A stretch of DNA of 25,864 nt from a virus. Under the pieces are notes generated by a model. The model was not told where the DNA came from. It searched no databases and saw only the letters and a program-made list of their open reading frames with translations. Of this stretch, positions 2,519-23,762 are shown one piece after another. Within the stretch, counting starts at the first letter, position 1. Each line of letters begins with the position of its first letter. Made by a program: the position numbers and the translations under genes. The stretch lies in IMG/VR virus record IMGVR_UViG_3300044625_000718, positions 1 to 25,864 of that record. The stretch is one strand, 5' to 3'.

Positions 2519-4113
2519 CGGTTATTTTCGTATATATCCATTACTTCCTTCACAACAGTATCGACATCTGGTAGATATTCAAGTACTGTCTTTTCTTTTG
2601 GAATAAAATCAATAGTATCGTGTTTAAACTCTGTATGACGAACTTCAAGATCGTCTAAGAGAAGATTCTTACGAAGTGCTTTTGTTTTATAATACTGAGT
2701 ACCATTACGGAATGGTAAAATATGGTCCTCGTGTTTGCAAGTAGGGAATGTAACAATCCAGTTATCAAACGCTCCCGCAACATGTAAAGGAGATGAATCA
2801 TTAGTTACTAAGCACCTTGAAAGGGAGATAAGAGCAAAAAGCTGACCGAGTGTGGTAAGATCTCTAAGATCGTAACCGTCTTCCGGCACTTTAACCGGCA
2901 AATACCCTTGCTTTTCATCAATAGTTCTACCGATTAGTACTACGGTAAGTTTTTCTGAGAGTTTGTTAACAATATCCTGCCACCAATCAATTGGTAGGGT
3001 CTTTGAAGGCCACCATCTGCCTGCGTGAACAATTACAGTAGGTTTATCAGGATTTTTATTTTTAAACAAATCAATTACATAAGAAACGTCTTCAGTGTCT
3101 AGTTTTAATTGAATAGTTTTATCCTTATTAGGAATCGTTCTCTTAATCATGGACATCGAAGCAAAATCAGTAGGATGAAAAAGCACGTGGGACAATTTAT
3201 GCTCAGATTGCTCTTCATCCGGGCAGGTATGCATTGTTATTAATGCATCATTTATTCCTTTCCATTGATCGTAGTTAATTACCGGACAACTAAGATGTTC
3301 AAATAGTCTCGGAAAGTGAGTCACAACTGTAATGTTTGTGTCTGGATATAATTTTTGTACGTATCGTATAGCGGGCTCTGAACAGAGCTGGTCTCCTAGC
3401 CCTGCGGTTACCGAGATTAAAATATTACGCTTATATTTATATCCTTCTTGTTTGTCTTTTTCCCATTGTTCAATATCTTTAAGAATAACATCCATTTGTA
3501 TATTCTTTGGGGCCCCAGCATAATGTACTATATAAGAATTTAAACGAGAGATTCCACAAAATTTATCAAGAATGTCCATACGATTAAAATCATAATGCAA
3601 ATCATGCATTTCAATCTTATCGTTTAAAATTCTAAGATTAATATAGGGTTGATCTGTCTCAACAAAATCAACCCCTTTAGGAAGTCTAAAGATTTGTTTA
3701 TGTATACGTGAGATAACCATTACCCCGGAATTGTAAAATTTGCCGCCCCATTTTTTTAGCGGTTCATTATAATATTCTGAAGCTTGTTCAAGGTACTCAA
3801 AACGCGGAGCGTACCGGCCTTCGTTAAGCATACCTAGTTTATTTTCAGGTACAATTTTAAGAAGATCGGGGCAATCTTCTCTAATTAAAATATCAATATC
3901 GAAGTAGATGATTCGTTTATATTGATTTAAAAGTTCAGCTATGAGAAATTTATTCCACTTCTGAGTGATATAATATTTGTTAAATTCGGCAATATTTAAA
4001 AAATCAGCACCAATTTTTTCGGCGTAGTTTTTAATAGAAGGCAAAGTAATCTTTGCAACTTCGTTATAGTAATCCCCAATTGAGATGGTTAAAACTAGGC
4101 TCTCTTTTTTCAT
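2515..4113 (-). CDS. Two-domain glycosyltransferase (GT8-like N-terminus, GT9-like C-terminus)
   Basis: A 532-residue fusion. Residues 5-205 look like a GT-A enzyme of the GT8/glycogenin type: the metal-binding DxD lies in YFDIDILI (D72, D74), with FYNSGVMV at 126-133 and HYAGAPKN at 197-204, matching that family's NAGV and HF-G-KPW regions. Residues 230-470 look like GT-B family 9 (heptosyltransferase-like): GLGD at 238-241, HAGRWWPSKTLPIDWW at 363-378, and the donor-binding VTNDSSPLHVAGA at 436-448. Two transferases in one chain suggest sequential addition of two sugars. The start ATG at 4113 lies 50 bases inside the end of the sulfotransferase gene; an AAAGAGA element just upstream could be a ribosome binding site, and no later Met would preserve the first beta strand. 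The acceptor is unknown: virion fiber or host surface polysaccharide. Confidence 0.88.
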   Translation of the reverse strand: MKKESLVLTISIGDYYNEVAKITLPSIKNYAEKIGADFLNIAEFNKYYITQKWNKFLIAELLNQYKRIIYFDIDILIREDCPDLLKIVPENKLGMLNEGRYAPRFEYLEQASEYYNEPLKKWGGKFYNSGVMVISRIHKQIFRLPKGVDFVETDQPYINLRILNDKIEMHDLHYDFNRMDILDKFCGISRLNSYIVHYAGAPKNIQMDVILKDIEQWEKDKQEGYKYKRNILISVTAGLGDQLCSEPAIRYVQKLYPDTNITVVTHFPRLFEHLSCPVINYDQWKGINDALITMHTCPDEEQSEHKLSHVLFHPTDFASMSMIKRTIPNKDKTIQLKLDTEDVSYVIDLFKNKNPDKPTVIVHAGRWWPSKTLPIDWWQDIVNKLSEKLTVVLIGRTIDEKQGYLPVKVPEDGYDLRDLTTLGQLFALISLSRCLVTNDSSPLHVAGAFDNWIVTFPTCKHEDHILPFRNGTQYYKTKALRKNLLLDDLEVRHTEFKHDTIDFIPKEKTVLEYLPDVDTVVKEVMDIYENNR

Positions 4114-4843
4114 AGTTCTCTTTAAGTTTATATGAAGTTAAAGCTTTTTCAATCTCAACAATTAACTTTTCTGACATAATTTCTTTATACCCACCGATTT
4201 TTCCTTTAACAGGGCCAAAATTAGGTAAGGATTTATCCTGAACATCGGGAATATTTGCTGCAATTTTCTTTTCAATCCAATTTTCAATTTTTTGTTTAAG
4301 AAAAGAATAATTTGTAAGCATATCTTCGTAATCAACTACAAGCATTTTATCTTTATACTTTAACCAACCATTAGTATGCAAAAACCAGCGATGAACATAA
4401 CTTTCTGGTTCAATGATAATATGCGGATCGGGTACATATGGTTTAAAAAAATTAAAACCAATAGTGCCAGGTTTACTAAATACCCATTCTTCAAATGACG
4501 GAAAATTCTTTATTTCCGTAGAATGTAAAAATTTGTAGTAGCTGTTTAACACATCTTTAATATCTCGCTTAACATAAATAACTTTATATTTGGTAAACAA
4601 AAATTCTAAATAGTCTTCCATAAACTCAACTTGATGATGGGACTTGTTTACTGAATCTACAAAATATGCGTTAGATATAATATGTTTGTATGTATTATGT
4701 TTATAGTCTTTTAAATTAAACTCGAGAGCTTTTGAGGTAAAACCGATAGTAGTAAACTGTCCTTTCTTATCATGGTTTATACAATTAATTAATAAATGCG
4801 TACCAGATCGCTCGTGTGTTATAACAATTACCGGTTTAACCAT
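4064..4843 (-). CDS. PAPS-dependent sulfotransferase-like protein
   Basis: A 259-residue protein with both PAPS-binding signatures of the sulfotransferase superfamily. The 5'-phosphosulfate loop is THERSGTHLLIN near residues 9-20. The 3'-phosphate-binding segment is VKRDIKDVLNSYYKF at 91-105, with R93 and S101 at the expected positions. NKSHH at 66-70 resembles the K-x-H stretch that contributes to catalysis in cytosolic sulfotransferases, and MLVVDYEDML is the usual conserved strand and acidic turn. There is no signal peptide, so it should act in the host cytoplasm using host PAPS. It starts two bases after the RCC1-type gene ends (TAATAATG) and overlaps the glycosyltransferase start. Its place in the fiber unit suggests that the acceptor is a glycan or a Tyr/Ser of the virion fiber; this is inference. 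Confidence 0.87.
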   Translation of the reverse strand: MVKPVIVITHERSGTHLLINCINHDKKGQFTTIGFTSKALEFNLKDYKHNTYKHIISNAYFVDSVNKSHHQVEFMEDYLEFLFTKYKVIYVKRDIKDVLNSYYKFLHSTEIKNFPSFEEWVFSKPGTIGFNFFKPYVPDPHIIIEPESYVHRWFLHTNGWLKYKDKMLVVDYEDMLTNYSFLKQKIENWIEKKIAANIPDVQDKSLPNFGPVKGKIGGYKEIMSEKLIVEIEKALTSYKLKENYEKREPSFNHLNWGLL

Positions 4844-4845
4844 TA

Positions 4846-7059
4846 TTAAATATTATAAACTCTTACCGGTGTAAGTACAACTACATTTTCAGGCTGAATT
4901 GGCAATTGCCCGGAATCATTTCGGCCCCAACCCCAAACTTTTCCATTTTTATCTATAGCTATTGTAGAATTATTAATTGCAGCTATTTTGCAAAATGTTT
5001 TATTAGCCCCTACAACACTGACAGGGGTGTTTCGCTGAGTTGATGTATTGTCGCCAAGTTGTCCGTAAAGATTATAACCCCAGCCCCATGCTTTTCCGTA
5101 TCTGTCTATAGCTACAGAATGGCCAAAGCCGCCTGCTATTTCACAAAATGTTTTAACCGCCCCTTGAACACTAAATACATCATCGTCTCTATCATCCCAA
5201 TTGGTATTTCCAACTTGCCCAAAGTCATTATATCCCCACCCCCAACACCTTCCACGTAAATCAATAGCAAGTCCATGATCAGAACCTGCGGCTATTTTAC
5301 AGAAAGTACGATTAGTTAATGCAACAGAGATAGGCGTATTCACGGATACAAGGGCATCTACATCTCTAGCCAATTTTCCGCCAGCATTATCTCCCCACCC
5401 CCACAGTCTACCTGTACTTCTTAAAGCAAGAGAAAATTGAGTTCCTGCTGCTACTTGACAAAATGTTTTTATTGCCCCAAGTACGCTTACAGGGGTATTC
5501 CGCGAGACCGTTGAATTATTTCCAAGGGCTCCAAACGTATTATTTCCCCACGCCCAAGCTCTGCCGTTTTTATCTATAGCTAAAGAATGAGCGTTTCCGC
5601 AATCTATTTGACAAAATGTTTTAGCGGCCCCAAGAATGCTAACAGGGGTATTTCGCTGAGTGGTAGAATTATCTCCAATTCTGCCGTTTGTATTTAAGCC
5701 CCAACCCCAAAGTCTACCGGTATTAGCAATCGCCAAGGTCCAACCTCCGCCGCTTGCTACTTTACAGAAAGTTTTATTAACCCCTGCGAGGTTAATTGGA
5801 GTATATCTAGCAGTAGTTGTATTGTCTCCGATAAAACCAGATGTATTGACGCCCCAAGACCATATTTTGCCAACTCTATCTATCATTATCGAAAATCCAC
5901 CACCAATATTAACTTGACAAAAAGTTTTATTTGCCCCTAAAACTATACTTTTTGGTGTTCGTACAAGAGCAGATAAGTTTGCTCCTAATTGACCTTGGTC
6001 GTTCGGGCCCCAAGCCCAGGTATTGTTATTTTTATCGATCGCTAAAGCATGTTGATTACCAGCAGCAATTTGACAAAATGTCTTTATGGCCCCAGCTACG
6101 CTAACCGGCGTGTTTCTAGCTGTAACAGAATTATCCCCAAGAAGTCCGGTTGTATTAAATCCCCAACCCCAAGCTCTACCGTTTTTATCAAGAGCAAGAG
6201 TCTGTCCGTTACTAAGACTTATTTTACAAAATGTTTTAACTGCCCCTGCTAAACTGACCGGTGTTAATTGTTGAACGTTTGCACCATTTCCAAGCTGACC
6301 GCTATTATTAAAGCCCCAAGACCAAATTCTACCATTTTTATCAATTGCTGCACTAGTAGCGTTCCCTGCAGCTATTTCACAAAATGTTTTAACTACACCC
6401 AAAACACTTACAGGGGTAAGAGAGCTAACAGTTGAATTTCTCCCAAGACGTCCATCACCCCCGTTGCCCCACGCCCATGCGCGTCCGTTTTTATCAATAG
6501 CTAAACTCCATGCATTTCCTGCTGCTATTTTGCAAAACGTTTTAACCGCGCCTAGGACGCTTACTGGAGTTCTTTTGCTAACAATTGTATTATCACCGAG
6601 GCGACCGTTGGCACCATCACCCCATGCCCATGCACGTCCAGTATGAGTCAGAGCTAAAGAATGGTTGCCAAGGCTTGCTGCTATATGGCAAAACGTTTTT
6701 ACTCCTCCAAGAATACTTACTGGTGTGAGTCGCTGGGTAATTGTATTATCTCCTACTTCGCCAGAAATATTTCTACCCCAACCCCATGCTCTACCGTTTT
6801 TATCTATAGCTAAAGAAAAATTGGCCCCTGCACTTATTTTGCAAAATGTTTTTACTGCCCCTAAAACACTTACAGGAGTTGACCTGTTGGCTGCCACCCC
6901 GGACACATTAATACCAAGTTGACCGAAGTTATTGTATCCCCAGCTCCATGCTCGACCGCTTTGTACAGACAAAGAAAAGAGTCCGCCCGCGGCAACAAGA
7001 TCAGTTATCGCTGTAGCTCCTGCTTTTCTTCGTAACACCGTGCTAAATACTAAACTCAT
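4846..7059 (-). CDS. RCC1-type beta-propeller protein with 14 blades
   Basis: A 737-residue protein built almost entirely from RCC1-like repeats of about 52 residues. Each repeat has the form W-x-WG-x-N-x-x-G-x-LG ... TPVSV-x-GA-x-KTFC-x-IAAG-x-x-x-x-x-AIDKNG. Counting the W-x-WG element gives 14 repeats, which would make two seven-bladed propellers. The KTFC (once RTFC) element occurs 13 times. A short leader (residues 1-20) precedes the first blade and the last blade ends at the C-terminus. There is no signal peptide or membrane segment. Eukaryotic RCC1 is a chromatin exchange factor, but phage versions are simply repeat scaffolds and no such activity should be assumed. It lies seven bases after the fiber-associated gene in the same unit, so I infer a receptor-binding or fiber-tip structural role. 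Confidence 0.88.
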   Translation of the reverse strand: MSLVFSTVLRRKAGATAITDLVAAGGLFSLSVQSGRAWSWGYNNFGQLGINVSGVAANRSTPVSVLGAVKTFCKISAGANFSLAIDKNGRAWGWGRNISGEVGDNTITQRLTPVSILGGVKTFCHIAASLGNHSLALTHTGRAWAWGDGANGRLGDNTIVSKRTPVSVLGAVKTFCKIAAGNAWSLAIDKNGRAWAWGNGGDGRLGRNSTVSSLTPVSVLGVVKTFCEIAAGNATSAAIDKNGRIWSWGFNNSGQLGNGANVQQLTPVSLAGAVKTFCKISLSNGQTLALDKNGRAWGWGFNTTGLLGDNSVTARNTPVSVAGAIKTFCQIAAGNQHALAIDKNNNTWAWGPNDQGQLGANLSALVRTPKSIVLGANKTFCQVNIGGGFSIMIDRVGKIWSWGVNTSGFIGDNTTTARYTPINLAGVNKTFCKVASGGGWTLAIANTGRLWGWGLNTNGRIGDNSTTQRNTPVSILGAAKTFCQIDCGNAHSLAIDKNGRAWAWGNNTFGALGNNSTVSRNTPVSVLGAIKTFCQVAAGTQFSLALRSTGRLWGWGDNAGGKLARDVDALVSVNTPISVALTNRTFCKIAAGSDHGLAIDLRGRCWGWGYNDFGQVGNTNWDDRDDDVFSVQGAVKTFCEIAGGFGHSVAIDRYGKAWGWGYNLYGQLGDNTSTQRNTPVSVVGANKTFCKIAAINNSTIAIDKNGKVWGWGRNDSGQLPIQPENVVVLTPVRVYNI

Positions 7060-7583: not shown

Positions 7584-10500
7584 TTATGCAAGTTGTCTTT
7601 CCCCGAATAAAGTCCAAGTATCGGCTGCAACATATTTTAATGTTACAACCGCGTATTGTTTTTCAGTGTACCGAGTTTGACTTGTATTTATAGTCACGCC
7701 CGCGGATGGATTAAAAAATATTTGACCAGCGCCAGCTTGTTCAAAAATTATTTCAGTATTGCTTGCCCAAGCGGCGCTAGCTGCGGTAACAACTGTTGCA
7801 GTAACAGTAGTTGCCGCGGTAGTACGAACGTATTCATATGCATAAGAACTATCTACGTTGAATGAAGTCGCGGCCGTAGATACTACTGGGAAATAGCCCC
7901 AAATGTCTGAATTGCCGCTACTAGCATAAATTGTAGCGGTGGATCGAATAGGTCCAGAAACTTCAAATTTATATGTTGCTCCTTGTGTACCTACACCCAC
8001 ATTAGTGCCGTTATCGAATATTTGACTATTACCAAGAGCTGCTGCACCAGTAAATTTAGATACAAAATTTGTAGTACCTGTTGCATTAGCGTTAGTACCT
8101 TGAGCGCCTTGATTACCTTGAGCGCCTGCTGCGCCTTGATTACCTTGTACCCCCGCTATACCTGAGTAACCTGAATAACCAGACGCGCCTTGAGCACCGG
8201 CAGCGCCTTGATTACCTTGTGCGCCTTGACTACCTTGACTACCGGTTGCTCCTTGAGCGCCTACTGCTCCTTGCGCGCCTTGATAGCCAGAGTAACCTGA
8301 AATACCAGAGTAGCCACTAATACCCGAATAACCTGAGTAACCAGATACTCCCTGAACACCGGCTGCTCCTTGGTTGCCTTGGGCACCTGCTGCTCCTTGG
8401 TTACCTTGATTGCCTTGTGCACCAGCTGCTCCTTGATTGCCTTGGTTGCCTTGGGCTCCGGCAGCGCCTTGGTTACCTTGGGCGCCTTGATAACCTGAAT
8501 AGCCAGATACACCTTGTACACCTGCAGCTCCTTGGTTGCCTTGGTTACCTTGAGCACCAGCTGCTCCTTGATTGCCTTGGTTACCTTGTGCCCCGGCTGC
8601 TCCTTGGTTACCTTGGTTACCTTGGTTACCTTGGGCGCCGGTAGCCCCTTGGTTGCCTTGATTACCTTGGGCACCATTATTACCAGAATAACCAGAATAT
8701 CCAGATACCCCTTGTACCCCGGCTGCTCCTTGATTGCCTTGATTACCTTGCGCGCCAGCTGCTCCTTGATTACCTTGATTACCTTGTGCACCGGCAGCGC
8801 CTTGGTTGCCTTGGTTACCTTGGTTACCTTGATAACCGGAATATCCTGATCTACCGGAGTACCCACTAATACCGGAGTACCCACTAATACCGGAGTATCC
8901 GCTTATACCGGAGTAACCAGAATAGCCTGACACCCCTTGGGCACCAGCCGCGCCTTGGTTGCCTTGGGCTCCAGCGGCTCCTTGATTACCTTGAGCACCG
9001 GCAGCGCCTTGGTTGCCTTGTGCGCCTGCAGCGCCTTGGTTGCCTTGGTTGCCTTGAGCTCCGTTATTACCTGAATAGCCTGAATAACCAGATCTACCAG
9101 AGTAACCACTTATACCCGAGTAGCCGCTGATACCGGAATAGCCGCTAATACCAGAGTAACCGCTAATACCAGAATAACCTGAAATGCCAGAATAACCGCT
9201 TATACCAGAATATCCAGAATAGCCAGAACCTCCTTGATTACCTTGGGCCCCTGCTGCGCCTTGATTGCCTTGATTACCCTGGTTACCTTGATTGCCTTGT
9301 ACCCCTGTAGCGCCTTGATACCCTGAATAACCAGATCTACCGGAGTAGCCGCTAATACCGCTATAGCCTGAATAACCAGATACGCCTTGTATACCAGTTG
9401 CGCCTTGGTTGCCCTGATTGCCTTGGTTGCCTTGGACTCCAGCTGCTCCTTGGTTGCCTTGGTTGCCTTGGGCACCATTATTACCAGAGTAGCCCGAGTA
9501 GCCGGATCTACCAGAATAACCGCTAATGCCGGAGTAGCCGCTTATACCACTATAACCACTAATACCTGAATACCCTGAATACCCGGATACACCCTGTGTC
9601 CCTACTGCACCTTGATTGCCTTGGTTGCCTTGGTTACCCTGTACACCAGTTGCGCCTTGGTTGCCTTGATTGCCCTGATTGCCCTGGGCACCATTATTGC
9701 CAGAATAGCCTGAGTAACCGGATCTACCAGAATAACCGCTAATGCCGGAGTAGCCACTAATACCAGAGTAACCGCTAATACCTGAGTAACCAGAATACCC
9801 GCTTGTACCTGAATAGCCGCTTGTACCTGAATAGCCGCTGATACCAGAGTAACCGCTTATGCCTGAATAGCCTGAATAACCGGATACTCCTTGGGCACCT
9901 ACTGCACCTTGATTGCCCTGGTTGCCTTGATTGCCTTGATTACCCTGGGCACCATTATTGCCTGAATAGCCCGAATAACCGGATACTCCTTGTACACCGG
10001 TTGCGCCTTGGTTGCCCTGATTACCTTGGTTGCCTTGCACGCCAGTTGCGCCTTGGTTGCCCTGATTGCCTTGGTTGCCTTGATTACCTTGTACTCCTTG
10101 GAAGCCTTGATACCCTGAATAACCAGATCTACCGGAGTAGCCGCTAATACCGCTATAGCCTGAAATGCCAGAGTAGCCGCTAATACCGCTGTAACCGCTA
10201 AAGCCACTAAAGCCGCTATAGCCGCTGTAACCACTGAACCCACTAAAGCCAGAAATACCTGAGTACCCGCTTATACCAGAATACCCTGAAGTGCCTTGTA
10301 CTCCTTGTACCCCCTGGAAGCCTTGGTAGCCGCTATAACCACTTCTACCGCTAAAACCAGATATACCAGAATAACCGCTAATACCAGAATAGCCGCTAAA
10401 GCCAGATATACCGGAATAACCACTGATGCCGGAATAGCCTGATATACCTGAATAACCAGATACACCTTGTACGCCGGTTGCGCCTTGGTTGCCCTGATTG

Positions 10501-13500
10501 CCTTGGTTGCCCTGTACGCCCTGTACGCCTTGAAAGCCTTGATAACCGGAGTAGCCTGAAGCTGCTGCAGCCCCTTGGAAGCCGCTATATCCACTAATGC
10601 CTGAGTAACCGCTTATGCCAGAATAACCTGATGCACCTTGTACCCCTTGTGCGCCTTGATACCCACTATACCCTGAAAAACCTGAATAGCCTGAAGCTGC
10701 TGCAGCGCCTTGGAAGCCACTATACCCACTGATACCAGAGTAACCACTAAAGCCGCTATAGCCAGAAATACCAGAGTAACCGCTAAACCCGCTGATACCG
10801 GAATAACCGCTTATACCGCTATAGCCTGAATAACCGGATCTACCGGAATAACCGCTTATACCAGAATAGCCGCTTATGCCGGAATAACCGCTTATGCCGG
10901 AATAACCTGAGTAACCGCTAATGCCGCTGTAGCCGCTAAAGCCAGATATACCGGAATAACCGCTTATACCACTGAAACCACTATAACCGGAAATGCCTGA
11001 GTAACCGCTTATGCCAGAGTAGCCTGACAGGCCTTGTACTCCTTGTACTCCTTGGAAGCCCTGGTAACCACTATACCCGCTAATACCGGAATAACCGCTT
11101 ATGCCAGAGTAGCCTGACAAGCCTTGTACGCCTTGTACTCCTTGGAAGCCCTGGTAGCCGCTATAACCTGATCTACCAGAGTATCCTGACAAGCCTTGTA
11201 CCCCTTGTACCCCTTGGAACCCTTGATAGCCTGATATACCAGAATAGCCGCTAATACCACTGTAACCAGAAATACCAGAATAGCCCGATAAGCCTTGTAC
11301 GCCTTGTATGCCCTGTATACCTTGTACTCCTTGGAAGCCTTGGTAACCAGAATAGCCTGATACGCCTTGCACACCGACCGCTCCTTGATTGCCTTGATTA
11401 CCTTGCGCGCCTTGGAAGCCCTGATAACCTGAATACCCCGATCTGCCGGAGTAGCCAGATATACCACTATAGCCACTTATACCGCTGTAGCCAGATGTAC
11501 CTGAATAACCACTTATACCGCTGTAGCCTGAAATACCTGAATAACCGGAGTAGCCTGAAAAGCCGCTAAACCCTGATATACCTGAATAACCAGAATACCC
11601 TGATATACCGCTATAGCCAGATATACCTGAGTATCCTGAATAGCCTGAGAACCCACTATAACCGCTTAAACCGCTGTAACCAGAAAGACCAGAGTAACCT
11701 GAAATACCGCTATAGCCTGAATACCCCGAGATGCCTGAGTAGCCACTATAGCCACTTGTACCGCTAATACCTGAATAGCCGCTAATGCCGCTGTAGCCTG
11801 AAGTGCCTGAATAACCTGAAATGCCTGAATATCCGCTGTAGCCACTTGTACCACTATAACCAGATATACCAGAGTAACCAGAAATACCACTGTAGCCAGA
11901 TATACCTGAGTAGCCACTATAACCGCTTATACCGCTGTAGCCAGAGTAACCACTTATACCGCTATAGCCAGACAAACCAGAGTAGCCTGAAATACCACTA
12001 TAACCAGAATAACCTGAGGTTCCTTGTACGCCTTGTACGCCTTGAAAACCTTGATAACCACTATACCCGGACGCTCCCTGTACCCCCTGTACCCCTTGGA
12101 AGCCTTGGAAGCCTTGGTACCCTGATGTACCAGAGTAACCACTAATACCGCTGTAACCTGAAATACCAGAATAGCCTGATAGACCTTGTACGCCTTGTAC
12201 TCCTTGGAAGCCCTGGTAGCCGCTATAACCTGATCTACCAGAGTATCCTGATATACCGGAATATCCTGATAAACCAGAATAACCGCTAATACCGCTATAG
12301 CCTGAATAACCTGAAACACCGCTATAACCACTAATACCGCTATAACCACTATAACCGCTTGTACCTGAGTAACCGCTAGTACCACTTATACCCGAATAAC
12401 CTGAAATACCGCTATAGCCAGAAATACCAGAAATACCAGAATAGCCACTTAGACCTGAGTAGCCGCTAATACCACTGTAGCCGGAGTAACCGGAATAACC
12501 GCTTAAACCTGAGTAACCGCTTGTACCACTATACCCTGAAATACCTGAGTAGCCGCTAATACCGCTATAACCTGAATAACCTGAAATACCGCTATAACCA
12601 GAAACACCGGAGCCAGAATAACCACTATAACCAGAAATACCCGAATACCCCGAAATACCTGAATAACCGGAATAGCCGCTTATACCAGAATAACCACTGT
12701 AGCCAGAGATACCTGAGTAGCCTGAGTAGCCTGAGTAGCCTGATACTCCAGACCCGGAATAACCTGATATACCTGAGTAACCTGAAATACCTGAGTAGCC
12801 TGATGTACCTGAGTAGCCGGAATAACCTGATGGTCCAGAATAACCAGATGTGCCTGAGTAGCCAGATATACCTGAGTAACCTGAATACCCTGACTCTCCA
12901 TAAGCAATTAATGCTGCTGTAAAGTATGTACCGGTACCGGCGCTATTAATATTTTGCCCAGCTGACGCACCTGTATAGGCAGTTACTTCTACATAATCAC
13001 TAGACCCGTTAAAATAGACTATTGTTGATAAAGATTGTCCTCGACCATTAGTAGTATTGACTGGATCTTGCTGAAATGCTAGTTGAGTGGTTCCGTTCTT
13101 CCTCAACTGAATATTATTTTGTTGAGTATTGTCCACCCCTGCTTCCCACCAAACAGAAACATTTACAGCATAATAACCAGCAACGGTTGGCTGAAATTTA
13201 TTAGAAGCAAACCAGTTACGCGGGTCAAAGTCGTCTGCAAACGTAACAACAGTATCAATAGCAGAACTAATACTCTGTGTGCCGCCTTGCTTAGTAGCAC
13301 GCACTACATACGTACTCGGCGTCAACATGCCACCGTCTTGACCTGAATAACCACTTATACCTGAGTACCCACTGTAGCCTGAAATACCTGAGTAGCCTGA
13401 AATACCGCTGTAGCCACTAATACCGCTGTAGCCAGAAATACCAGAATAACCACTATAGCCAGATATACCAGAATAACCTGAGGTACCGCTGTAGCCACTA

Positions 13501-16500
13501 GTGCCACTATAACCCGAAGTTCCGCTATACCCCGAATAACCAGAGTAACCACTTATACCAGCTCCTGAATAGCCCGAGTACCCAGATGTGCCTACAGCGC
13601 CTCTATATATACCGGTAGAAATATTACTATAGTGGTCAGTACCCTCGTAGTATAATCTTACAGTTCTAGTTTGATTTTGAGGGCATTCTGCACTAACTCT
13701 CAATATAAGTCTATCGGTTATATCTAGAGTTTTAGCAACTGAGATAGTAAAATTAGTAACTAAATTACTAGGGCTATCAATATTAGTATTAGTTAAGTAG
13801 TCACTAACAGCTGTTAAAAGAAGAGTCTCTGTACCACCAGTCGCGCGTTTGTAAACACCGTACGTAAGACGAACATCCCCAGCATGGCTTACATAATACC
13901 AAGTATTAAACTGCCAAGTGCCTATCGGAATCTGTGTAACACCTGGCTGTCCGATAGGAGTTACTTGATTAATAAAATTAACTGCTGACTGGGTAAATGT
14001 TACAGTAAAATAAGTTTCAGGGTCAAAGTCAGGCGCAGTATCTAGAACGTCGAAGCCGCTTAAATCAGAAGCACTGTTAGTATAATAATAAGTTATACCC
14101 ACTGCAGGTATACCGCTAAAGCCACTAATACCACTATAACCAGAAATACCTGAGTAGCCGCTGATACCTGAGTAGCCGCTTATACCGCTATAGCCCGAAT
14201 AACCGCTTAAGCCTGAATAACCGCTTAAGCCTGAATAACCGCTTAAGCCTGAATAACCGCTAATGCCTGAGTAGCCACTAATACCACTATAACCCGAGTA
14301 GCCACTAATACCACTATAACCAGAATAGCCAGAGTAGCCGCTTATGCCCGAATAGCCGCTGATACCTGAGTAGCCACTTATACCGCTATAGCCACTGTAA
14401 CCACTAACGCCGGAATACCCACTATAGCCTGAAATACCAGAATAACCGCTAGTACCTGAATAGCCAGAATAACCGCTAGTACCGGAATAACCGCTAGTAC
14501 CTGAATAGCCACTGATGCCTGAATAACCTGAAACACCTGAATAACCAGAGTAACCACTAATACCGGAATAACCGCTTATACCACTATAACCAGATATACC
14601 GGACCCGGAATAGCCTGATATACCACTATAGCCACTGTAACCTGATATACCAGAATAACCTGAAGTACCTGATATACCTGAATAACCTGATACCCCGCTG
14701 TAGCCGCTTATACCGGAGTAGCCAGAATAACCTGAGTAGCCTGACTGCCCGCTAGCCCCGCTTATACCGCTATAGCCTGAAATACCACTATAGCCAGAGA
14801 TACCACTGTAACCAGAATAACCTGACTCCCCACTGTAACCACTTATACCGGAGTAGCCAGAGTAGCCAGAGTAGCCAGAATCTCCGCTATAGCCGCTCAG
14901 ACCTGAATAACCACTCTCCCCGCTGTAACCAGAAATACCTGAGTAACCTGATACACCAGAATAGCCTGATATACCGGAATAGCCGCTTATACCGCTATAC
15001 CCGCTATAACCTGAATAACCTGATATACCGCTGTACCCAGATATACCTGAATAACCGCTCGTACCGCTATAGCCTGAATAGCCTGAAATACCAGAATAAC
15101 CAGAATCTCCGCTATAGCCACTATAACCGCTTATGCCGGAGTAACCGGAAATACCAGAATAACCACTAATACCACTATAGCCTGAATAACCTGAATACCC
15201 ACTAATGCCTAAGTCTCCACTATAGCCTGATATACCGGAGTAGCCTGATATACCTGAATAACCGGAGTAACCGCTAATGCCACTGTAACCACTATAACCG
15301 CTTGTACCGCTATAACCACTATAACCGCTCTCTCCGGAGTAGCCGCTATAACCAGAATAGCCGCTTATACCGGAATCGCCACTATAACCCGAAGTGCCTG
15401 AGTAGCCTGAAATGCCTGAGTCTCCGCTATAGCCTGAAATACCAGAGTAGCCACTAATGCCACTGTAACCACTATAACCGCTTGTACCACTTGTACCACT
15501 ATAGCCACTGATACCAGAGTAACCACTAATACCAGAGTAGCCACTATACCCAGAGTAGCCGCTTATACCTGAATCGCCACTATAACCTGAAATACCTGAG
15601 TCTCCGCTATAGCCTGAAATGCCGCTATAGCCGCTTATACCAGAGTAACCACTGATACCGCTTATACCAGAATAACCAGAAGTACCAGAGTAACCGCTTA
15701 TACCGCTATAACCTGAAATACCAGAGTAGCCACTAATACCAGAATCTCCGCTGTAACCTGAAATACCAGAAATACCAGAATAGCCAGAATACCCTGAAAA
15801 CCCGCTGTAGCCTGATATGCCCGAGTAGCCACTAATACCACTATAGCCTGAATATCCTGAGATACCGGAATAACCGCTAATACCTGAATAGCCGCTAAAG
15901 CCTGAAATACCTGAGTCTCCACTATAGCCTGAAATGCCGCTGTAACCGCTAAAACTACTATAACCTGAATAACCTGATGTGCCAGAGTAGCCAGAGTAGC
16001 CACTAGTACCGGAGTACCCGCTTATACCACTGTAACCTGAAATACCAGAGTAACCGCTAATACCAGAATAACCTGAGTCTCCACTGTATCCGCTTAACCC
16101 GCTGTAGCCACTAAAACCTGATATACCTGAGTAACCTGAAATACCTGAGTCTCCGCTATAGCCTGAAATGCCGCTGTAACCGCTATAGCCACTTATGCCT
16201 GAATAGCCAGAAGTGCCTGAGATGCCTGAATACCCAGAGTAGCCGCTTATACCAGAATAACCGCTAATGCCTGAATAACCGGACGTACCGCTATAACCTG
16301 AAATGCCTGAATAACCGGAATAGCCGCTAATACCAGAGTAACCGCTTATACCACTATAACCGGAATAGCCTGATATACCACTATACCCGCTAAAACCAGA
16401 AATGCCTGAATAGCCAGAGTAGCCTGAAGTGCCGCTAATACCAGAGTAGCCTGAAATACCTGAGTACCCGCTAATACCGCTATAACCACTTATACCACTG

Positions 16501-17699
16501 TACCCGCTAATACCAGAGTAGCCTGACGATGCAACAGCACCTACCGCTCCGCTATAACCTGAAATACCTGAGTAACCAGAGTAACCACTAATGCCACTAT
16601 AACCACTAATGCCGCTGTATCCTGATAGACCACTGTAGCCACTAAAACCAGAATAGCCCGAGTAACCGCTAGTGCCAGAATAACCAGATGCTGAAGTCGC
16701 GCCTACTGCCCCAGAGTAACCTGAAAAACCGCTATACCCTGAAAAACCACTATAGCCTGATACACCGCTGTAACCAGATATACCAGAGTAACCTGAATAC
16801 CCGCTAATACCAGAATCTCCGCTGTAACCGCTGTAACCGGAAATACCAGTTGTACCACTGTAGCCTGATATACCACTATAACCACTAAAACCAGAAATGC
16901 CTGAATACCCACTTATACCGGAGTAACCGCTAGTGCCTGAATAACCTGATATACCACTAATACCAGAATAACCTGATGTACCGCTAATACCAGAATAACC
17001 AGACACCCCTGAGTACCCACTTATACCGCTATAACCGCTAGGCCCTGAATAGCCTGAAAAGCCTGAAATACCGCTATAGCCTGAAATACCGCTATGACCG
17101 CTAATACCAGAGTCGCCGCTATACCCACTGTAGCCAGAATACCCCGAAATACCGCTATACCCCGATATGCCCGAATAACCAGAATAGCCGCTAATACCGG
17201 AGTAACCACTAATACCGGAATAGCCACTTATACCAGAATCTCCGCTATAACCTGAAGTACCTGAATAACCAGAAAAACTACTATAACCGGAGTAACCTGA
17301 ATAGCCGCTTTCCCCGCTGTACCCGGAATAACCGCTTTCACCAGAATAACCTGAATACCCGCTATAACCAGAAACTCCAGAACCTGAATACCCGCTGTAC
17401 CCTGAATAACCACTTATACCGGAATAACCTGATGCAGAAGAAGAACCTTGCGCGCCAGAATAGCCTGAGTAACCAGACTCTCCAATACCCGAATACCCAC
17501 TAGAACCTGAATACCCACTATAACCTGAATACCCCATTACCCCTTGTGCGGATAAAGCAGAAATACTAATAGAGTATGAAGTATACGTACCATCGCTATT
17601 ATTTCTTTCAAGAAATAATATATCAGTACCAGAAAGAGGACCAACTGGCACTGAAGGTAGTTCGTGTGGAAATATTAATGTCGGAAAATCAGCGGACAT
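7584..17699 (-). CDS. Giant collagen-like tail fiber protein (3371 residues)
   Basis: One uninterrupted frame of 10.1 kb. Residues 1-52 (LPSVPVGPLSGTDILFLERN region) resemble the short attachment segment that starts many phage fibers. From residue 53 to about 3201 the chain is mostly Gly-X-Y triplets, about 940 by length, usually with Ser or Gln at Y: GYS, GIS, GTS, GDS first, then GFQ, GVQ, GNQ, GAQ, GAA toward the end. Two globular domains interrupt at 1197-1370 and 1454-1600. The C-terminal domain (3202-3371) has the NFVSKFTG...NSQIFDNGTNVGVGT motif that precedes head domains in other fibers. Proline is nearly absent from the triplets. A trimeric, extended, virion-exposed fiber is the natural reading. 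The gene starts 12 bases after the neck gene. Synonymous codons vary strongly between repeats, so the frame is under selection. Repeat length may be affected by assembly errors. Confidence 0.92.
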   Translation of the reverse strand: MSADFPTLIFPHELPSVPVGPLSGTDILFLERNNSDGTYTSYSISISALSAQGVMGYSGYSGYSGSSGYSGIGESGYSGYSGAQGSSSASGYSGISGYSGYSGYSGSGVSGYSGYSGYSGESGYSGYSGESGYSGYSGYSSFSGYSGTSGYSGDSGISGYSGISGYSGISGYSGYSGISGYSGISGYSGYSGYSGDSGISGHSGISGYSGISGFSGYSGPSGYSGISGYSGVSGYSGISGTSGYSGISGISGYSGTSGYSGISGYSGISGFSGYSGISGYSGTTGISGYSGYSGDSGISGYSGYSGISGYSGVSGYSGFSGYSGFSGYSGAVGATSASGYSGTSGYSGYSGFSGYSGLSGYSGISGYSGISGYSGYSGISGYSGAVGAVASSGYSGISGYSGISGYSGISGYSGISGYSGISGTSGYSGYSGISGFSGYSGISGYSGYSGISGYSGISGYSGYSGISGYSGTSGYSGISGYSGISGYSGYSGISGTSGYSGISGYSGYSGISGYSGDSGISGYSGISGFSGYSGLSGYSGDSGYSGISGYSGISGYSGISGYSGTSGYSGYSGTSGYSGYSSFSGYSGISGYSGDSGISGFSGYSGISGYSGISGYSGYSGISGYSGISGYSGFSGYSGYSGISGISGYSGDSGISGYSGISGYSGISGYSGTSGYSGISGISGYSGISGYSGISGYSGDSGISGYSGDSGISGYSGYSGYSGISGYSGISGYSGTSGTSGYSGYSGISGYSGISGYSGDSGISGYSGTSGYSGDSGISGYSGYSGYSGESGYSGYSGTSGYSGYSGISGYSGYSGISGYSGISGYSGDLGISGYSGYSGYSGISGYSGISGYSGISGYSGYSGDSGYSGISGYSGYSGTSGYSGISGYSGISGYSGYSGYSGISGYSGISGYSGVSGYSGISGYSGESGYSGLSGYSGDSGYSGYSGYSGISGYSGESGYSGYSGISGYSGISGYSGISGASGQSGYSGYSGYSGISGYSGVSGYSGISGTSGYSGISGYSGYSGISGYSGSGISGYSGISGYSGISGYSGYSGVSGYSGISGYSGTSGYSGTSGYSGYSGTSGYSGISGYSGYSGVSGYSGYSGISGYSGISGYSGISGYSGYSGYSGISGYSGYSGISGYSGISGYSGLSGYSGLSGYSGLSGYSGYSGISGYSGISGYSGISGYSGISGFSGIPAVGITYYYTNSASDLSGFDVLDTAPDFDPETYFTVTFTQSAVNFINQVTPIGQPGVTQIPIGTWQFNTWYYVSHAGDVRLTYGVYKRATGGTETLLLTAVSDYLTNTNIDSPSNLVTNFTISVAKTLDITDRLILRVSAECPQNQTRTVRLYYEGTDHYSNISTGIYRGAVGTSGYSGYSGAGISGYSGYSGYSGTSGYSGTSGYSGTSGYSGISGYSGYSGISGYSGISGYSGISGYSGISGYSGYSGISGYSGQDGGMLTPSTYVVRATKQGGTQSISSAIDTVVTFADDFDPRNWFASNKFQPTVAGYYAVNVSVWWEAGVDNTQQNNIQLRKNGTTQLAFQQDPVNTTNGRGQSLSTIVYFNGSSDYVEVTAYTGASAGQNINSAGTGTYFTAALIAYGESGYSGYSGISGYSGTSGYSGPSGYSGYSGTSGYSGISGYSGISGYSGSGVSGYSGYSGYSGISGYSGYSGISGYSGYSGISGYSGISGYSGYSGSGVSGYSGISGYSGYSGISGYSGISGYSGTSGYSGLSGYSGYSGYSGISGYSGLSGYSGISGISGYSGISGYSGISGTSGYSGTSGYSGYSGISGYSGVSGYSGYSGISGYSGLSGYSGISGYSGRSGYSGYQGFQGVQGVQGLSGYSGISGYSGISGYSGTSGYQGFQGFQGVQGVQGASGYSGYQGFQGVQGVQGTSGYSGYSGISGYSGLSGYSGISGYSGYSGISGYSGYSGISGYSGISGYSGISGYSGTSGYSGYSGISGYSGTSGYSGISGYSGISGTSGYSGYSGISGYSGYSGISGYSGLSGYSGLSGYSGFSGYSGYSGISGYSGISGYSGYSGISGFSGFSGYSGYSGISGYSGISGYSGTSGYSGISGYSGISGYSGRSGYSGYQGFQGAQGNQGNQGAVGVQGVSGYSGYQGFQGVQGIQGIQGVQGLSGYSGISGYSGISGYSGISGYQGFQGVQGVQGLSGYSGRSGYSGYQGFQGVQGVQGLSGYSGISGYSGISGYSGYQGFQGVQGVQGLSGYSGISGYSGISGYSGFSGISGYSGISGFSGYSGISGYSGYSGISGYSGISGYSGISGYSGRSGYSGYSGISGYSGISGFSGYSGISGYSGFSGYSGISGYSGFQGAAAASGYSGFSGYSGYQGAQGVQGASGYSGISGYSGISGYSGFQGAAAASGYSGYQGFQGVQGVQGNQGNQGNQGATGVQGVSGYSGISGYSGISGYSGISGFSGYSGISGYSGISGFSGRSGYSGYQGFQGVQGVQGTSGYSGISGYSGISGFSGFSGYSGYSGFSGFSGYSGISGYSGISGYSGISGYSGRSGYSGYQGFQGVQGNQGNQGNQGNQGATGVQGNQGNQGNQGATGVQGVSGYSGYSGNNGAQGNQGNQGNQGNQGAVGAQGVSGYSGYSGISGYSGISGYSGTSGYSGTSGYSGYSGISGYSGISGYSGISGYSGRSGYSGYSGNNGAQGNQGNQGNQGATGVQGNQGNQGNQGAVGTQGVSGYSGYSGISGYSGISGYSGISGYSGRSGYSGYSGNNGAQGNQGNQGAAGVQGNQGNQGNQGATGIQGVSGYSGYSGISGYSGRSGYSGYQGATGVQGNQGNQGNQGNQGAAGAQGNQGGSGYSGYSGISGYSGISGYSGISGYSGISGYSGISGYSGISGYSGRSGYSGYSGNNGAQGNQGNQGAAGAQGNQGAAGAQGNQGAAGAQGNQGAAGAQGVSGYSGYSGISGYSGISGYSGISGYSGRSGYSGYQGNQGNQGNQGAAGAQGNQGNQGAAGAQGNQGNQGAAGVQGVSGYSGYSGNNGAQGNQGNQGATGAQGNQGNQGNQGAAGAQGNQGNQGAAGAQGNQGNQGAAGVQGVSGYSGYQGAQGNQGAAGAQGNQGNQGAAGAQGNQGNQGAAGAQGNQGAAGVQGVSGYSGYSGISGYSGISGYSGYQGAQGAVGAQGATGSQGSQGAQGNQGAAGAQGASGYSGYSGIAGVQGNQGAAGAQGNQGAQGTNANATGTTNFVSKFTGAAALGNSQIFDNGTNVGVGTQGATYKFEVSGPIRSTATIYASSGNSDIWGYFPVVSTAATSFNVDSSYAYEYVRTTAATTVTATVVTAASAAWASNTEIIFEQAGAGQIFFNPSAGVTINTSQTRYTEKQYAVVTLKYVAADTWTLFGERQLA
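7587..8096 (-). other. C-terminal domain of the giant fiber (residues 3202-3371)
   Basis: About 170 residues with no triplets. The first part (TTNFVSKFTGAAALGNSQIF and DNGTNVGVGT, then YKFEVSGPI) is a beta-rich motif seen just before head domains in many aquatic phage and Bacteroidota proteins. The second part, rich in Thr, Ala and Val (TTAATTVTATVVTAAS, then TEIIFEQAGAGQIFF), resembles small beta-stranded tail fiber tips. No intramolecular chaperone (endosialidase-type peptidase) signature is visible. Confidence 0.7.
8097..12899 (-). repeat. C-terminal collagen-like block of the fiber, grading from GYS to GNQ/GAQ triplets
   Basis: Fiber residues 1601-3201, about 534 triplets. The half next to domain B resembles the N-terminal block. 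From about 12230 downward the motif GYQGFQGVQGVQG appears repeatedly, and below about 10120 GNQ, GAQ and GAAGAQ triplets dominate, alternating with short GYSGISGYSG stretches. Two near-identical breaks read GFQGAAAASGYSG (around 10560 and 10690). The composition therefore shifts from Tyr/Ser to Asn/Gln/Ala toward the C-terminus. Confidence 0.92.
12900..13340 (-). other. Fiber globular domain B, C1q/TNF-like (residues 1454-1600)
   Basis: About 147 residues. The run DFDPRNWFASNKFQP-TVAGYYAVNVSVWW matches the C1q-family pattern of ydpxtgxFxaPxaGxYxF followed by a hydrophobic strand. Later elements IQLRKNGTTQLA, STIVYFNGSSDYVEV and GTGTYFTAALIAYGE fit its remaining strands, including the final TYFTAxLI strand. 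C1q-like jelly rolls form trimers beside collagen helices in animals and bacteria. The family assignment is by pattern only. Confidence 0.62.
13341..13589 (-). repeat. Short collagen-like spacer between the two globular domains
   Basis: Fiber residues 1371-1453, about 28 triplets of the GTS/GYS/GIS type, ending in GQDGG just before domain B. One irregular GAGIS step occurs near its start. It separates two folded domains by a short triple-helix-like rod. Confidence 0.85.
13590..14111 (-). other. Fiber globular domain A (residues 1197-1370)
   Basis: About 174 residues without triplets, inserted between collagen-like blocks. It begins IPAVGITYYYTNSASD, contains IGTWQFNTWYYVSH and YGVYKRATGGTETLLL, and ends RLYYEGTDHYSNIST. 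This pattern, strands ending in a YYEGTxHxSxI-T tail, recurs in phage fiber proteins beside collagen-like repeats as I recall it, and is probably a beta-sandwich trimerisation or binding module. The DFDPETYF segment near its start resembles DFDPRNWF in domain B, so the two may be distantly related. Confidence 0.6.
14112..17543 (-). repeat. N-terminal collagen-like block of the fiber, Gly-Tyr-Ser/Gly-Ile-Ser triplets
   Basis: A coding repeat with a nine-base unit (Gly-X-Ser) and a frequent 18-base super-unit (GYSGIS). It spans fiber residues 53-1196, about 381 triplets. The X position is mostly Tyr or Ile, with Thr, Asp, Val, Leu, Phe and Glu scattered. Regularity breaks at a few places, including the segments containing GSGVSG, YSSFSG, GATSASG, GAVASSG and GDLGIS. 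Both Ser codon families (TCN and AGY) are used throughout. Confidence 0.93.
14197..14250 (-). repeat. Perfect 18-base tandem triplication inside the fiber gene
   Basis: The plus-strand unit gaataaccgcttaagcct occurs three times with no mismatch, and a fourth copy at 14251-14268 differs at two bases. It encodes GLSGYS-type triplets. In an array where neighbouring repeats normally use different codons, perfect identity points to a recent local duplication. Confidence 0.9.
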
Positions 17700-21798: not shown

Positions 21799-21847
21799 CT
21801 TTGTATACTTACAATTGATTAAATAATATAAACTATTAAATCATAAT
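21799..21847. promoter_or_regulatory. Divergent intergenic region between terminase and unknown gene
   Basis: 49 A/T-rich bases between two divergent starts, so promoters for both directions are expected here. GATTAAATAATATAAACTA on the plus strand contains a TAAATA box about 30 bases before the plus ATG, a better distance for a T4-like late promoter than at the other divergent sites. No Shine-Dalgarno is visible on either side. Confidence 0.35.
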
Positions 21848-22504
21848 ATGCTCTTTAAACCCAATCGTATTACTCTGCCCACCATGCCTATGTTGGTAAA
21901 ACCTATTAAGAATGAGGATTTGCTCTATACCTGTCAAATCACTCAATTCGATAGAGAGGGATATGAGCTGCTTCCGATTGAACAAGAGTATTACAAAATT
22001 AATGATATTGGGATGCATAATGAAAAAGTCTTTGCCCATGAATCAGGCAATCCAAATGGATGGAGCGCAGCAATACAAAGATGGTTTGAACAGGTAGATA
22101 GTAATTCTCCTTATGTATTAGATCATTCTTTTTGTGTTGTACGTTACGGGTTTGAAGGGGAAGCTAAAAAACAAATACAAAAAGCTGCTAAAAAGAGACC
22201 CGAACTTAGCAAACTATTAAACATTAAACCCAAATGGGGTCATGATTTTTGCGTGGATTACGTTCAGCCTGATTGTTCCTACGAATTGGTCCACTGGGAA
22301 TGGGACTATAGAAACTACGACGAGTTTGATTTACACCGCGAATGCCTAGAGGTTATAGTAGAAAAAACTGATTGGGAAGCAGTACACCGAGCAGTTAAGA
22401 CATTTCGTATGAGTATGCCTCATGCTGAAGCTGATGTAGAAGGTAATTTTAGAACCAATATGTTTGGTCTACATAAAGCGTTTAGACTCTTTAAGAGTTT
22501 TTAA
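21848..22504 (+). CDS. Unknown phage protein, 218 residues
   Basis: I do not recognise this protein. It is soluble-looking, with no signal peptide or membrane segment, and rich in aromatic residues: WSAAIQRWFEQ (72-82), DHSFCVVRYGF, then VHWEWDYRNYDEFD in the second half, followed by two probable helices (ECLEVIVEKTDWEAVHRAVKTF). The compact mixed alpha/beta pattern suggests a folded domain. The ATG at 21848 is the first in the frame; Met13 and Met15 are possible later starts. It is a single-gene plus unit diverging from the terminase. Its stop codon overlaps the stop of the facing gene through a shared TTAA. Confidence 0.8.
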   Translation: MLFKPNRITLPTMPMLVKPIKNEDLLYTCQITQFDREGYELLPIEQEYYKINDIGMHNEKVFAHESGNPNGWSAAIQRWFEQVDSNSPYVLDHSFCVVRYGFEGEAKKQIQKAAKKRPELSKLLNIKPKWGHDFCVDYVQPDCSYELVHWEWDYRNYDEFDLHRECLEVIVEKTDWEAVHRAVKTFRMSMPHAEADVEGNFRTNMFGLHKAFRLFKSF

Positions 22505-23703
22505 AACGTTACCATAAAGGCATTACCACGAGCATCCTGAAAGTTAGGCGTTGCGGCATAAGTTAACCCGCCTGGAGTATCAATACTGTTTAGCGCTTCT
22601 TCGTAGGTCTTAAAAAATAACTCTCCGTCTTTATATACAGCAAAGTATGTAAAGCTTTCTATACTGTGATAGTACATAAAGCATAGCTTAAACAGACCCA
22701 CAGTTAATTGTTCTTTAAGTGGTAAACCTAGGCGATCAAATGCTCCATCAATGGTAGAAGTTATTGCTTCAGGGTTAAAATCTTTAAGATATATTGATAC
22801 ACTATTAGTGTATGCTCTTACAATTTGTTCTCGTAAATTACGATTAGGATCAGCCTCAATAGCCTGCATTAACATTTGGGTGAATGTTTTAAAATTTTTA
22901 TCGTTTAAATTATACCAATATGTTTCTCTAAACCCAGGTGCATTACCTATAATATCGCTAAAGTTTTTTACAAAAGCTGCTTTAATGTCTCCGTATATAT
23001 TTTGAGACCCGCTTAAACGACCTGCCGACTGCTCATCGCCGGCGCCTTGCTTTACTTCAATTAGACCTTCAGGTACCTGTACATCTCCTTTGACTGGGTG
23101 CATACCGTCTTTAAGTAAAAGTATTAATGCTAGTTCTCCCTTACCAGTACCTTTACCACCACCCCCGGGTACTGTCATACTAAAAATACTTCTTACTAAA
23201 TGCTCATGAAGCATAGGAAATAAATTTTCTACTCGTTCAGGTGTTGACATACTAGCTAATTCAGAGGCAGAGATTTGTTCAGAGCCTCTAATATAATTAA
23301 CTAAATCGTTGACGTGGTTAGAAGTATTTGCACTCAATATACTCTCTATAGGCATAGCTACGTTCTTAGTGAGTCCTTTTTTCTTAAAGATATTTTTAAG
23401 AATAGGTAAGTGCTTAATGTCTTGTTGTAAGATATTTAGAGCTTTGAGATATGCTATACGAGTGATAGGTCTTTTACGCGACTCAATATCAGATAGTAGA
23501 CCGATTAAATTATTGAGTTCATCTGGAGTAATCTCATCTCCAGCAGGAAGCTCGCTTTCAAATTTTTCCCCTCGACCCTTTCTAGCTTCTAAAAAGTCAT
23601 GCATTCTACTCTTAAAATTTTCAATAACTTGAACCAAATGGTACTGTTCCTTAGCAGTAATTAACGGATTGTTATTGAGTAGTTTTTTAGGCAGGTAATA
23701 CAT
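22501..23703 (-). CDS. Phage protein with PD-(D/E)xK nuclease-like motif set
   Basis: A 400-residue protein. The central region reads GKGELALILLL with E190, then GDVQV with D207, then LIEVKQG with E216 and K218. This order and spacing (Glu on a helix, Asp on the first strand, E-x-K on the second) fit the PD-(D/E)xK restriction-endonuclease fold. A glycine-rich loop PGGGGKGTGKGE (179-190) precedes it; it is not a Walker A motif because no Thr/Ser follows the Lys in the right register. The N-terminal 170 residues are helical and charged; the C-terminal 170 look alpha/beta with no recognised domain. A role in DNA processing during replication or packaging would fit a nuclease, but catalytic activity is unproven and similar phage proteins may be structural. 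It diverges from the 143-residue gene. Confidence 0.75.
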   Translation of the reverse strand: MYYLPKKLLNNNPLITAKEQYHLVQVIENFKSRMHDFLEARKGRGEKFESELPAGDEITPDELNNLIGLLSDIESRKRPITRIAYLKALNILQQDIKHLPILKNIFKKKGLTKNVAMPIESILSANTSNHVNDLVNYIRGSEQISASELASMSTPERVENLFPMLHEHLVRSIFSMTVPGGGGKGTGKGELALILLLKDGMHPVKGDVQVPEGLIEVKQGAGDEQSAGRLSGSQNIYGDIKAAFVKNFSDIIGNAPGFRETYWYNLNDKNFKTFTQMLMQAIEADPNRNLREQIVRAYTNSVSIYLKDFNPEAITSTIDGAFDRLGLPLKEQLTVGLFKLCFMYYHSIESFTYFAVYKDGELFFKTYEEALNSIDTPGGLTYAATPNFQDARGNAFMVTF

Positions 23704-23762
23704 ATGTTGCGGTATATATCATATTTACTTTTAATTTCAAGTAAAAAAGGTAAATATTACAT
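23704..23762. promoter_or_regulatory. Divergent intergenic region with inverted TAAATAT boxes
   Basis: 59 A/T-rich bases. ATATTTAC at 23721-23728 and GTAAATAT at 23750-23757 form an inverted pair, one facing each gene; a second pair TTTACTT/AAGTAAA (23724-23730 and 23739-23745) lies inside. Both flanking ATGs sit in identical CATATG palindromes. This looks like back-to-back promoters of T4-late type or an operator; the sequence cannot decide which. Confidence 0.4.

Follow-up and report, generated by a model that had tools for sequence, protein, structure and literature searches.

The protein P0001, encoded beside the T4-type large terminase subunit (TerL) in a virus record of 25,864 bases (the whole of which is called the window here), is very probably a nuclease of the PD-(D/E)xK superfamily, as judged from the conservation of four residues across divergent relatives and from a predicted structure. 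It belongs to a family of predicted phage nucleases, widespread and unrecognised by the Pfam and PHROG libraries searched, for which candidate active-site residues can be named, and its gene is a cassette that is inserted, lost, and exchanged for unrelated genes beside TerL. A cultured phage with a member of this family, the Flavobacterium phage immuto (gp078), offers a place to test its function. The family also raises the question of whether phages lacking a detectable gp4 use a swappable TerL-side nuclease instead or carry it as a weapon. A search of the literature, with subscription-only articles outside its scope, found no paper on this nuclease family, and within the literature searched the family, its active-site residues, its distribution and the swappable architecture of the wider group appear to be new.

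The gene and its neighbours

The ORF call places the gene on the minus strand, which the first-pass annotation had left unstated, and a direct check of the translated protein found E190, D207, E216 and K218 exactly where that annotation had put them (Table 1). Searched as a single sequence, P0001 was without a match in Pfam, in PHROGs, among cultured phages and among PDB sequences.

Table 1. Position, strand and basis of the features discussed (window coordinates)
Feature	Position	Strand	Basis or remark
Predicted PD-(D/E)xK nuclease gene (P0001)	22501..23703	-	400 aa, ATG to stop
E190 codon, helix of the predicted nuclease core	23134..23136	-	Residue check; kept in 107/107 aligned
D207 codon, start of the first predicted core strand	23083..23085	-	Residue check, conservation, model
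E216-V217-K218 codons, E-x-K on the second predicted core strand	23050..23058	-	Residue check, conservation, model
Predicted C-terminal nuclease domain, residues ~184-400	22504..23154	-	AlphaFold2 model; HinP1I match over model 153-400
Helical region, residues 98-175, with detectable similarity to distant relatives	23179..23412	-	hhalign, A3 vs A6
Block missing in relative L028 (nuclease gene and 218-aa gene)	21802..23743	.	Flanks join at L028 4332 and 4369
T4-type TerL, same strand, downstream of P0001	20026..21798	-	Pfam Terminase_6N 1e-18; PHROG terminase large subunit
218-aa gene, convergent, between P0001 and TerL	21848..22504	+	Beside TerL also in relatives without a detected family member
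143-aa gene, divergent, other side of P0001	23763..24194	+	Present in L028, which is without the nuclease gene

Conservation of the predicted active site

The motif on which the first-pass annotation was built has little meaning by itself: when P0001 is shuffled, 58% of the products (1157 of 2000) contain a loose version of it (E-x10..25-D-x5..15-[DE]-x-K), as do 10 of 15 further window ORFs that were checked, while the exact spacing of P0001 is found in 13 of 2000 shuffles. What lifts the motif in P0001 above chance is the conservation of its four residues across divergent members. In an alignment of 23 members (A5) they are among 11 columns conserved at 90% or more. The profile made from this alignment matches 141 distinct ORFs, 115 of which span the core, and the four columns hold E, D, E and K in 107 of these 115; the other eight are gapped in all four columns, although several of them show G.GE...D...E.K on direct reading. 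When the members of the alignment itself are excluded, the count is 85 of 93, with the remaining eight again gapped. Not one of the 107 core-aligned members carries a substitution at the four residues, even though most of them share only 13-25% identity with the window protein, and the best conserved columns are the four putative catalytic residues together with G187. The D-to-E spacing is 9 in 96 of the 107 and the E-to-K spacing 2 in all of them, while the distance from E to D ranges from 16 to 35.

These 115 core-spanning ORFs give a fairer count of conservation than a later alignment of 69 rows (A7), whose invariant columns are partly so by construction because five core-less ORFs had been removed before it was assembled. 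Two of the 107, L108 and L110, were retrieved with a pattern that required D, E and K but left E190 free. Close IMG/VR relatives, L005 (79% identity), L016 (75%) and the fragment L008, are too close to P0001 to judge conservation. The four residues, whose conservation the first-pass annotation had proposed to check, are thus kept, and the PD-(D/E)xK active site that it proposed is supported by their retention in 107 of 107 aligned members and by a confident AlphaFold2 model.

Predicted structure

Supplied with 69 aligned members, AlphaFold2 returned a model of P0001 with a pLDDT of 82.4, a pTM of 0.78 and values above 90 over most of the core; the 23-member alignment gave nearly the same layout at a pLDDT of 73.2. 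In the model, E190 lies in a helix (190-196), D207 just before a strand (208-210), and E216 and K218 on a second strand (213-219), which would put the four residues on a helix-strand-strand core of the restriction type. A helical insertion of ~110 residues (about 240-349) is predicted between the strand at 213-219 and the strands at 353-358 and 361-366. The structure prediction suggested by the first-pass annotation produced a model with a candidate nuclease core rather than a fold without one.

Searches of the PDB with Foldseek gave nothing significant for either model, and the matches returned were dismissed as noise. When the Foldseek candidates were aligned with VIA-align 2, the type II restriction endonuclease HinP1I came first for both models, with the entry 2fkc for the first model (Z 3.3, 146 residues aligned) and 1ynm for the second (162 residues aligned over model 153-400, rmsd 5.7, at a Z of 5.0, which is weak and below the program's own advised level of trust); the other HinP1I entry ranked tenth and second, respectively. 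The resemblance supports the predicted fold but is not proof of it. HinP1I was not listed by a phmmer or profile search of PDB chain sequences; the PDB profile matches, to helical-repeat, Hsp70 and other unrelated proteins at E values of 0.0045 or higher, were dismissed. Three phage proteins of the BFVD collection (A0A6J5L5I7, A0A6J5TDS8 and A0A6J7WGY6) matched the first model with Foldseek E values of 1.3e-4 to 2.0e-4 and a probability of 1.00, and probably belong to the same family as P0001; they are uncharacterised proteins of uncultured phages, with TM-scores of 0.42-0.48 by query length only.

Relatives of P0001 and their distribution

More than 100 relatives of P0001 were found in IMG/VR, together with immuto gp078, which is annotated as hypothetical and separated from TerL by two genes. 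The neighbouring immuto gp077 (L132:6606-7607(+)) is annotated as a cob(I)alamin adenosyltransferase, a name made doubtful by a sequence that looks charged, helical and structural. The relatives were reached by several routes. A scan with the TerL family gave 80 loci, and in several of these the ORF directly 5' of TerL is a strongly diverged relative of P0001 (L037, at 37% identity, L038, L039, L045, L046, L048, L087 and L094). L108 and L110 came from the DNA pattern P..GDV.(I/V)....(I/V)E.K; L110 led to L115-L131, and an alignment of this group then returned the best 80 of 218 further relatives. One relative (L196:2411-3088 and 3036-3644(+)) extends over two frames and may be a broken gene or the product of a sequencing error.

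All-against-all phmmer comparison of 5,606 ORFs chains the family together stepwise (window to L110, 6e-4; L110 to L117, 1e-84; L045 to L108, 2e-5), and hhalign joins the window clade to the L110 group with a probability of 96.3 and an E value of 1.6e-9 over residues 102-223. The hhalign comparison supports homology between the C-terminal part of P0001 and the nuclease cassettes that carry the N-terminal (KGYPD) module described below. Two relatives from the larger group turned up among 84,980 species genomes, both in MAG contigs, while a scan of the same genomes with the window clade gave no match; nor did any plasmid match the family (best E 0.5). The family seems largely confined to viruses.

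Position beside TerL and behaviour as a cassette

The nearness of the gene to the terminase, remarked on in the first-pass annotation, exceeds what chance would give: for all 65 ORFs with TerL in the retrieved stretch, TerL is found downstream and on the same strand, within 100 nt for 33 of them, and is often overlapped by the nuclease gene by a few bases. The 65 are drawn from 141 distinct ORFs with the nuclease family or the N-terminal module, the other 76 being without TerL in stretches that are often short, and eight of the 65 are not independent, as they were reached through TerL (the eight diverged relatives listed above). One member, L108, instead adjoins a polymerase-like fragment and replication genes, as read by eye from its ORFs.

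The gene is also absent from this site in a close relative. L028, whose TerL is 86% identical to that of the window, aligns to two stretches of the window, 24601 down to 23744 and 21801 onwards, which are parted in L028 by 36 bases, such that the nuclease gene and the 218-aa gene are missing as one block. L028 is a fragment of 9,960 bases, and the nuclease gene could therefore sit elsewhere in its genome. In L005, by comparison, the nuclease is present and the 218-aa gene absent. Both the 143-aa and the 218-aa genes persist beside TerL where no member of the nuclease family was detected, and an immunity or antitoxin role for them was accordingly rejected. Among the clade members, the slot 5' of TerL is occupied, by eye, by an HNH-like protein in L077, an FMN-reductase-like protein in L050 and L076, and a methyltransferase-like protein in L084. 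In L030, L031 and L032 it holds a protein of 436 aa (cut in L032) that is unlinked to the family. The ORFs at L030:699-2006(+) and L032:3-965(+), directly 5' of TerL in close relatives of the window, have stretches of Y-E-V-K and, in L030, of G-P-G-E and may represent a further nuclease type; they resemble the family in motif style only, with no phmmer link, and were left out of the family counts.

Among 20 larger records, the family profile matched 11 and was without a match in nine; seven of these nine (G003-G006 and G008-G010, 36-109 kb) have a TerL related to that of the window. Such turnover of the gene among related phages, with unrelated genes taking its place, suggests a part in either rivalry between genomes or packaging. 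Its exact absence from so close a relative as L028 argues against a packaging role that this phage group could not do without.

An N-terminal module with variable C-terminal parts in the wider group

Most members outside the window clade start with a module of ~45 aa with the signature G-x-P-D (KFPKGYPDMNNPEDK). This module was undetected in P0001 and in the rest of its clade, and what follows from it therefore applies to the wider family and not directly to the window gene. A module-only search returned the best 80 of 406 relatives, and together with the earlier loci 128 distinct ORFs carry it. Exactly one copy was found in each of 18 large records, which had been selected for carrying the module.

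The nuclease profile fails to cover the C-terminal part in 21 of the 141 ORFs; a further five are fragmentary or have a broken frame. By eye, twelve of the 21 share one C-terminal type, with the signature S-I-K or S-L-K, and the other nine are diverse. These C-terminal types (L216, L219, L218, L257, L282, L286, L199 and the L252 group), some of which look nuclease-like or ADP-ribosyltransferase-like on inspection, had no Pfam match, and their PHROG matches are to families of unknown function only: phrog_12709 for L219, L270 and L283, of four ORFs of the S-I/L-K type scanned (L216 included), and phrog_13937 for L218. In L199 (6593-7681(+)), ~135 aa precede the module and a region that looks ADP-ribosyltransferase-like by eye follows it, a reading that found no support in Pfam or PHROGs. 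In the uncultured phage LR756508 (L291), a start resembling the module heads an acidic protein that does not have the nuclease motif.

The order in L110-type loci is up1, nuclease, TerL, portal. A homologue of up1 lies directly upstream in 96 of 120 nuclease-type ORFs, 14 being without upstream room and 10 showing none, and within 700 bases upstream in 20 of the 21 ORFs with a variant C-terminus, which argues that these occupy the same slot. A broader, rather doubtful proposal is that, in T4-like phages of aquatic bacteria, one slot of the packaging operon is dedicated to a polymorphic weapon, one per genome, in which a constant docking module would be joined to interchangeable C-terminal domains (the PD-(D/E)xK family, at least one other nuclease type, perhaps several, and possibly an ADP-ribosyltransferase) and carried along by the packaging machine or inside it; the docking part of the window phage would then have diverged beyond recognition.

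gp4 and the small terminase subunit in related records

The gp4 protein of T4 is described in the consulted text of one source as a restriction-fold nuclease needed for packaging (PMC7824862). Its family (PF08722, phrog_218) was undetected in 12 of the 14 records searched, among them the complete immuto genome, with possibly incomplete IMG/VR records making up 10 of these 12; it was present in both T4-like controls, phiM12 and nACB2, and the T4 portal, searched as a further control, was found in 12 of the same 14. The small terminase subunit (TerS; PF11053, phrog_735) followed the same pattern, undetected in 12 of 14 with positive controls, and P0001 itself matched neither the gp4 families nor those of TerS (T4 gp16). 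These counts allow, but leave unproven, a TerL-side nuclease that stands in for gp4. Mel-JY01, a complete genome with a related TerL, has neither gp4 nor the nuclease family by these searches, which speaks against a simple rule of replacement. A fusion with TerS was also considered, as the gene occupies the gp16 position of T4-like phages, and was rejected because of the missing TerS match and the close relative without the gene, even though TerS is itself undetected.

Proposed role and its alternatives

The likeliest role, and one put forward tentatively, is that of an accessory nuclease in contests between genomes. P0001 would be a metal-dependent DNase of the restriction-endonuclease superfamily, in whose catalytic domain (~184-400) E190, D207 and E216 would hold the metal and K218 would assist hydrolysis, while the helical N-terminal half might dock or oligomerise the enzyme. 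The gene would be an accessory cassette of the late packaging region, in TerL orientation and inserted, lost and exchanged there, and its target would be DNA other than its own copy, whether of a competing phage, the host or a cassette-free relative, much as homing or exclusion nucleases do where they occur at terminases. The absence of the block in L028, the slot swaps within the clade, the same-strand position with TerL and the published precedent at terminase loci favour such a role. In the part of that work consulted, the phage terminase is a gathering place for endonuclease genes from different classes, and the nuclease hot spot upstream of it is read both as part of packaging and as a site of selfish, homing genes, readings that are not mutually exclusive (PMC10448857). 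P0001 shares with homing genes its presence or absence at one site in close relatives (L028, a fragment), although neither it, in Pfam and PHROGs, nor the Pfam families listed for the 23 aligned members include HNH, GIY-YIG or LAGLIDADG. On the other side, that members so divergent still keep the four residues suggests long-term selection for a useful function more than a selfish element in decay, and the single-copy, order-conserved slot of the larger group fits a resident function.

An alternative, somewhat unlikely on present evidence, is a packaging or head-completion nuclease, which would work with TerL and the portal to trim ends or branches of the phage's own DNA during filling, doing the job of gp4 while being unrelated to it. 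The location in the late operon next to TerL, with a frequent overlap of a few bases, the failure to detect gp4 in 12 of 14 records and the single copy per record (among records chosen for the module) all agree with this role, as does the requirement of T4 packaging for a restriction-fold nuclease (PMC7824862, as far as the consulted text goes). The gene is nevertheless missing at the TerL spot in L028 and undetected in the seven larger TerL relatives, Mel-JY01 manages with neither protein detectable, and gp4 may simply be too divergent to be found. Distinctly unlikely, though suggested by the constant module, which in one and the same slot is joined to this nuclease or to other C-terminal parts (21 distinct ORFs), is an effector whose N-terminal part would bring it into the head and that would enter the host with the DNA and attack host DNA or defences through a variable C-terminal domain; packing of effectors into phage heads is described in the consulted text of PMC5512222, and the ADP-ribosyltransferase-like appearance of L199 would suit it, but that assignment is without database support and the module is undetected in P0001 and its clade. 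It is highly improbable that the protein is no DNase at all, and instead an inactive or RNA- or nucleotide-acting relative with a coincidental motif: the structural match is weak, but four catalytic residues kept in every aligned member of so divergent a family speak against it. A restriction-modification system was rejected, with no partner methylase recognised beside the gene, relatives in two MAG contigs and no plasmid match.

Likeness to known systems

Of known proteins, HinP1I (PDB 1ynm, 2fkc) is the best structural match to P0001 and spans the whole predicted C-terminal domain, but identity is ~10%, and HinP1I (247 aa) is without the ~180-aa helical N-terminal half. T4 gp4 is alike in being a restriction-fold nuclease of T4-like phages tied to packaging; it differs in having no sequence match to P0001, in its size (~150 aa, with 154 aa in phiM12, vs 400 aa) and in its location, ~26-28 kb from TerL in phiM12 and nACB2. 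The HNH nuclease of HK97-type phages likewise lies directly upstream of TerL, at once a packaging part and a hot spot of homing genes in the text consulted (PMC10448857), but it has an HNH fold and belongs to cos phages, whereas P0001 has a predicted restriction fold and a T4-type TerL. Free-standing homing endonucleases (T5orf172, IPA-HNH) show similar presence and absence and class swaps at terminase loci (same source and portion), while differing in the domain families already named as unmatched in P0001. The present family would be a third, independent case of a nuclease gene beside the terminase. Polymorphic toxins and polyvalent injected phage proteins resemble the wider group in their constant N-terminal part and variable C-terminal domains; here, by contrast, no immunity gene was identified and the window clade is without a detectable module.

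Other genes of the window

On the minus strand, an ORF of 3371 aa (7584-17699) with GYSG/SGYSGIS and GAQGNQG repeats is collagen-like, has a few non-repeat islands and is probably a fibre. A 737-aa protein encoded at 4846-7059 (-) consists of RCC1 repeats (Pfam RCC1 7e-110) and resembles PHROGs named regulator of chromosome condensation. It is adjoined at 1979-4843 (-) by a row of genes for proteins with a sulfotransferase domain, with glycosyltransferase 8 and 9 domains and with weak methyltransferase likeness (Pfam), possibly involved in surface or fibre modification. On the plus strand, 316-1977 encodes a 553-aa protein with a cytidylyltransferase-like domain at residues 364-456 (Pfam 1.2e-9).
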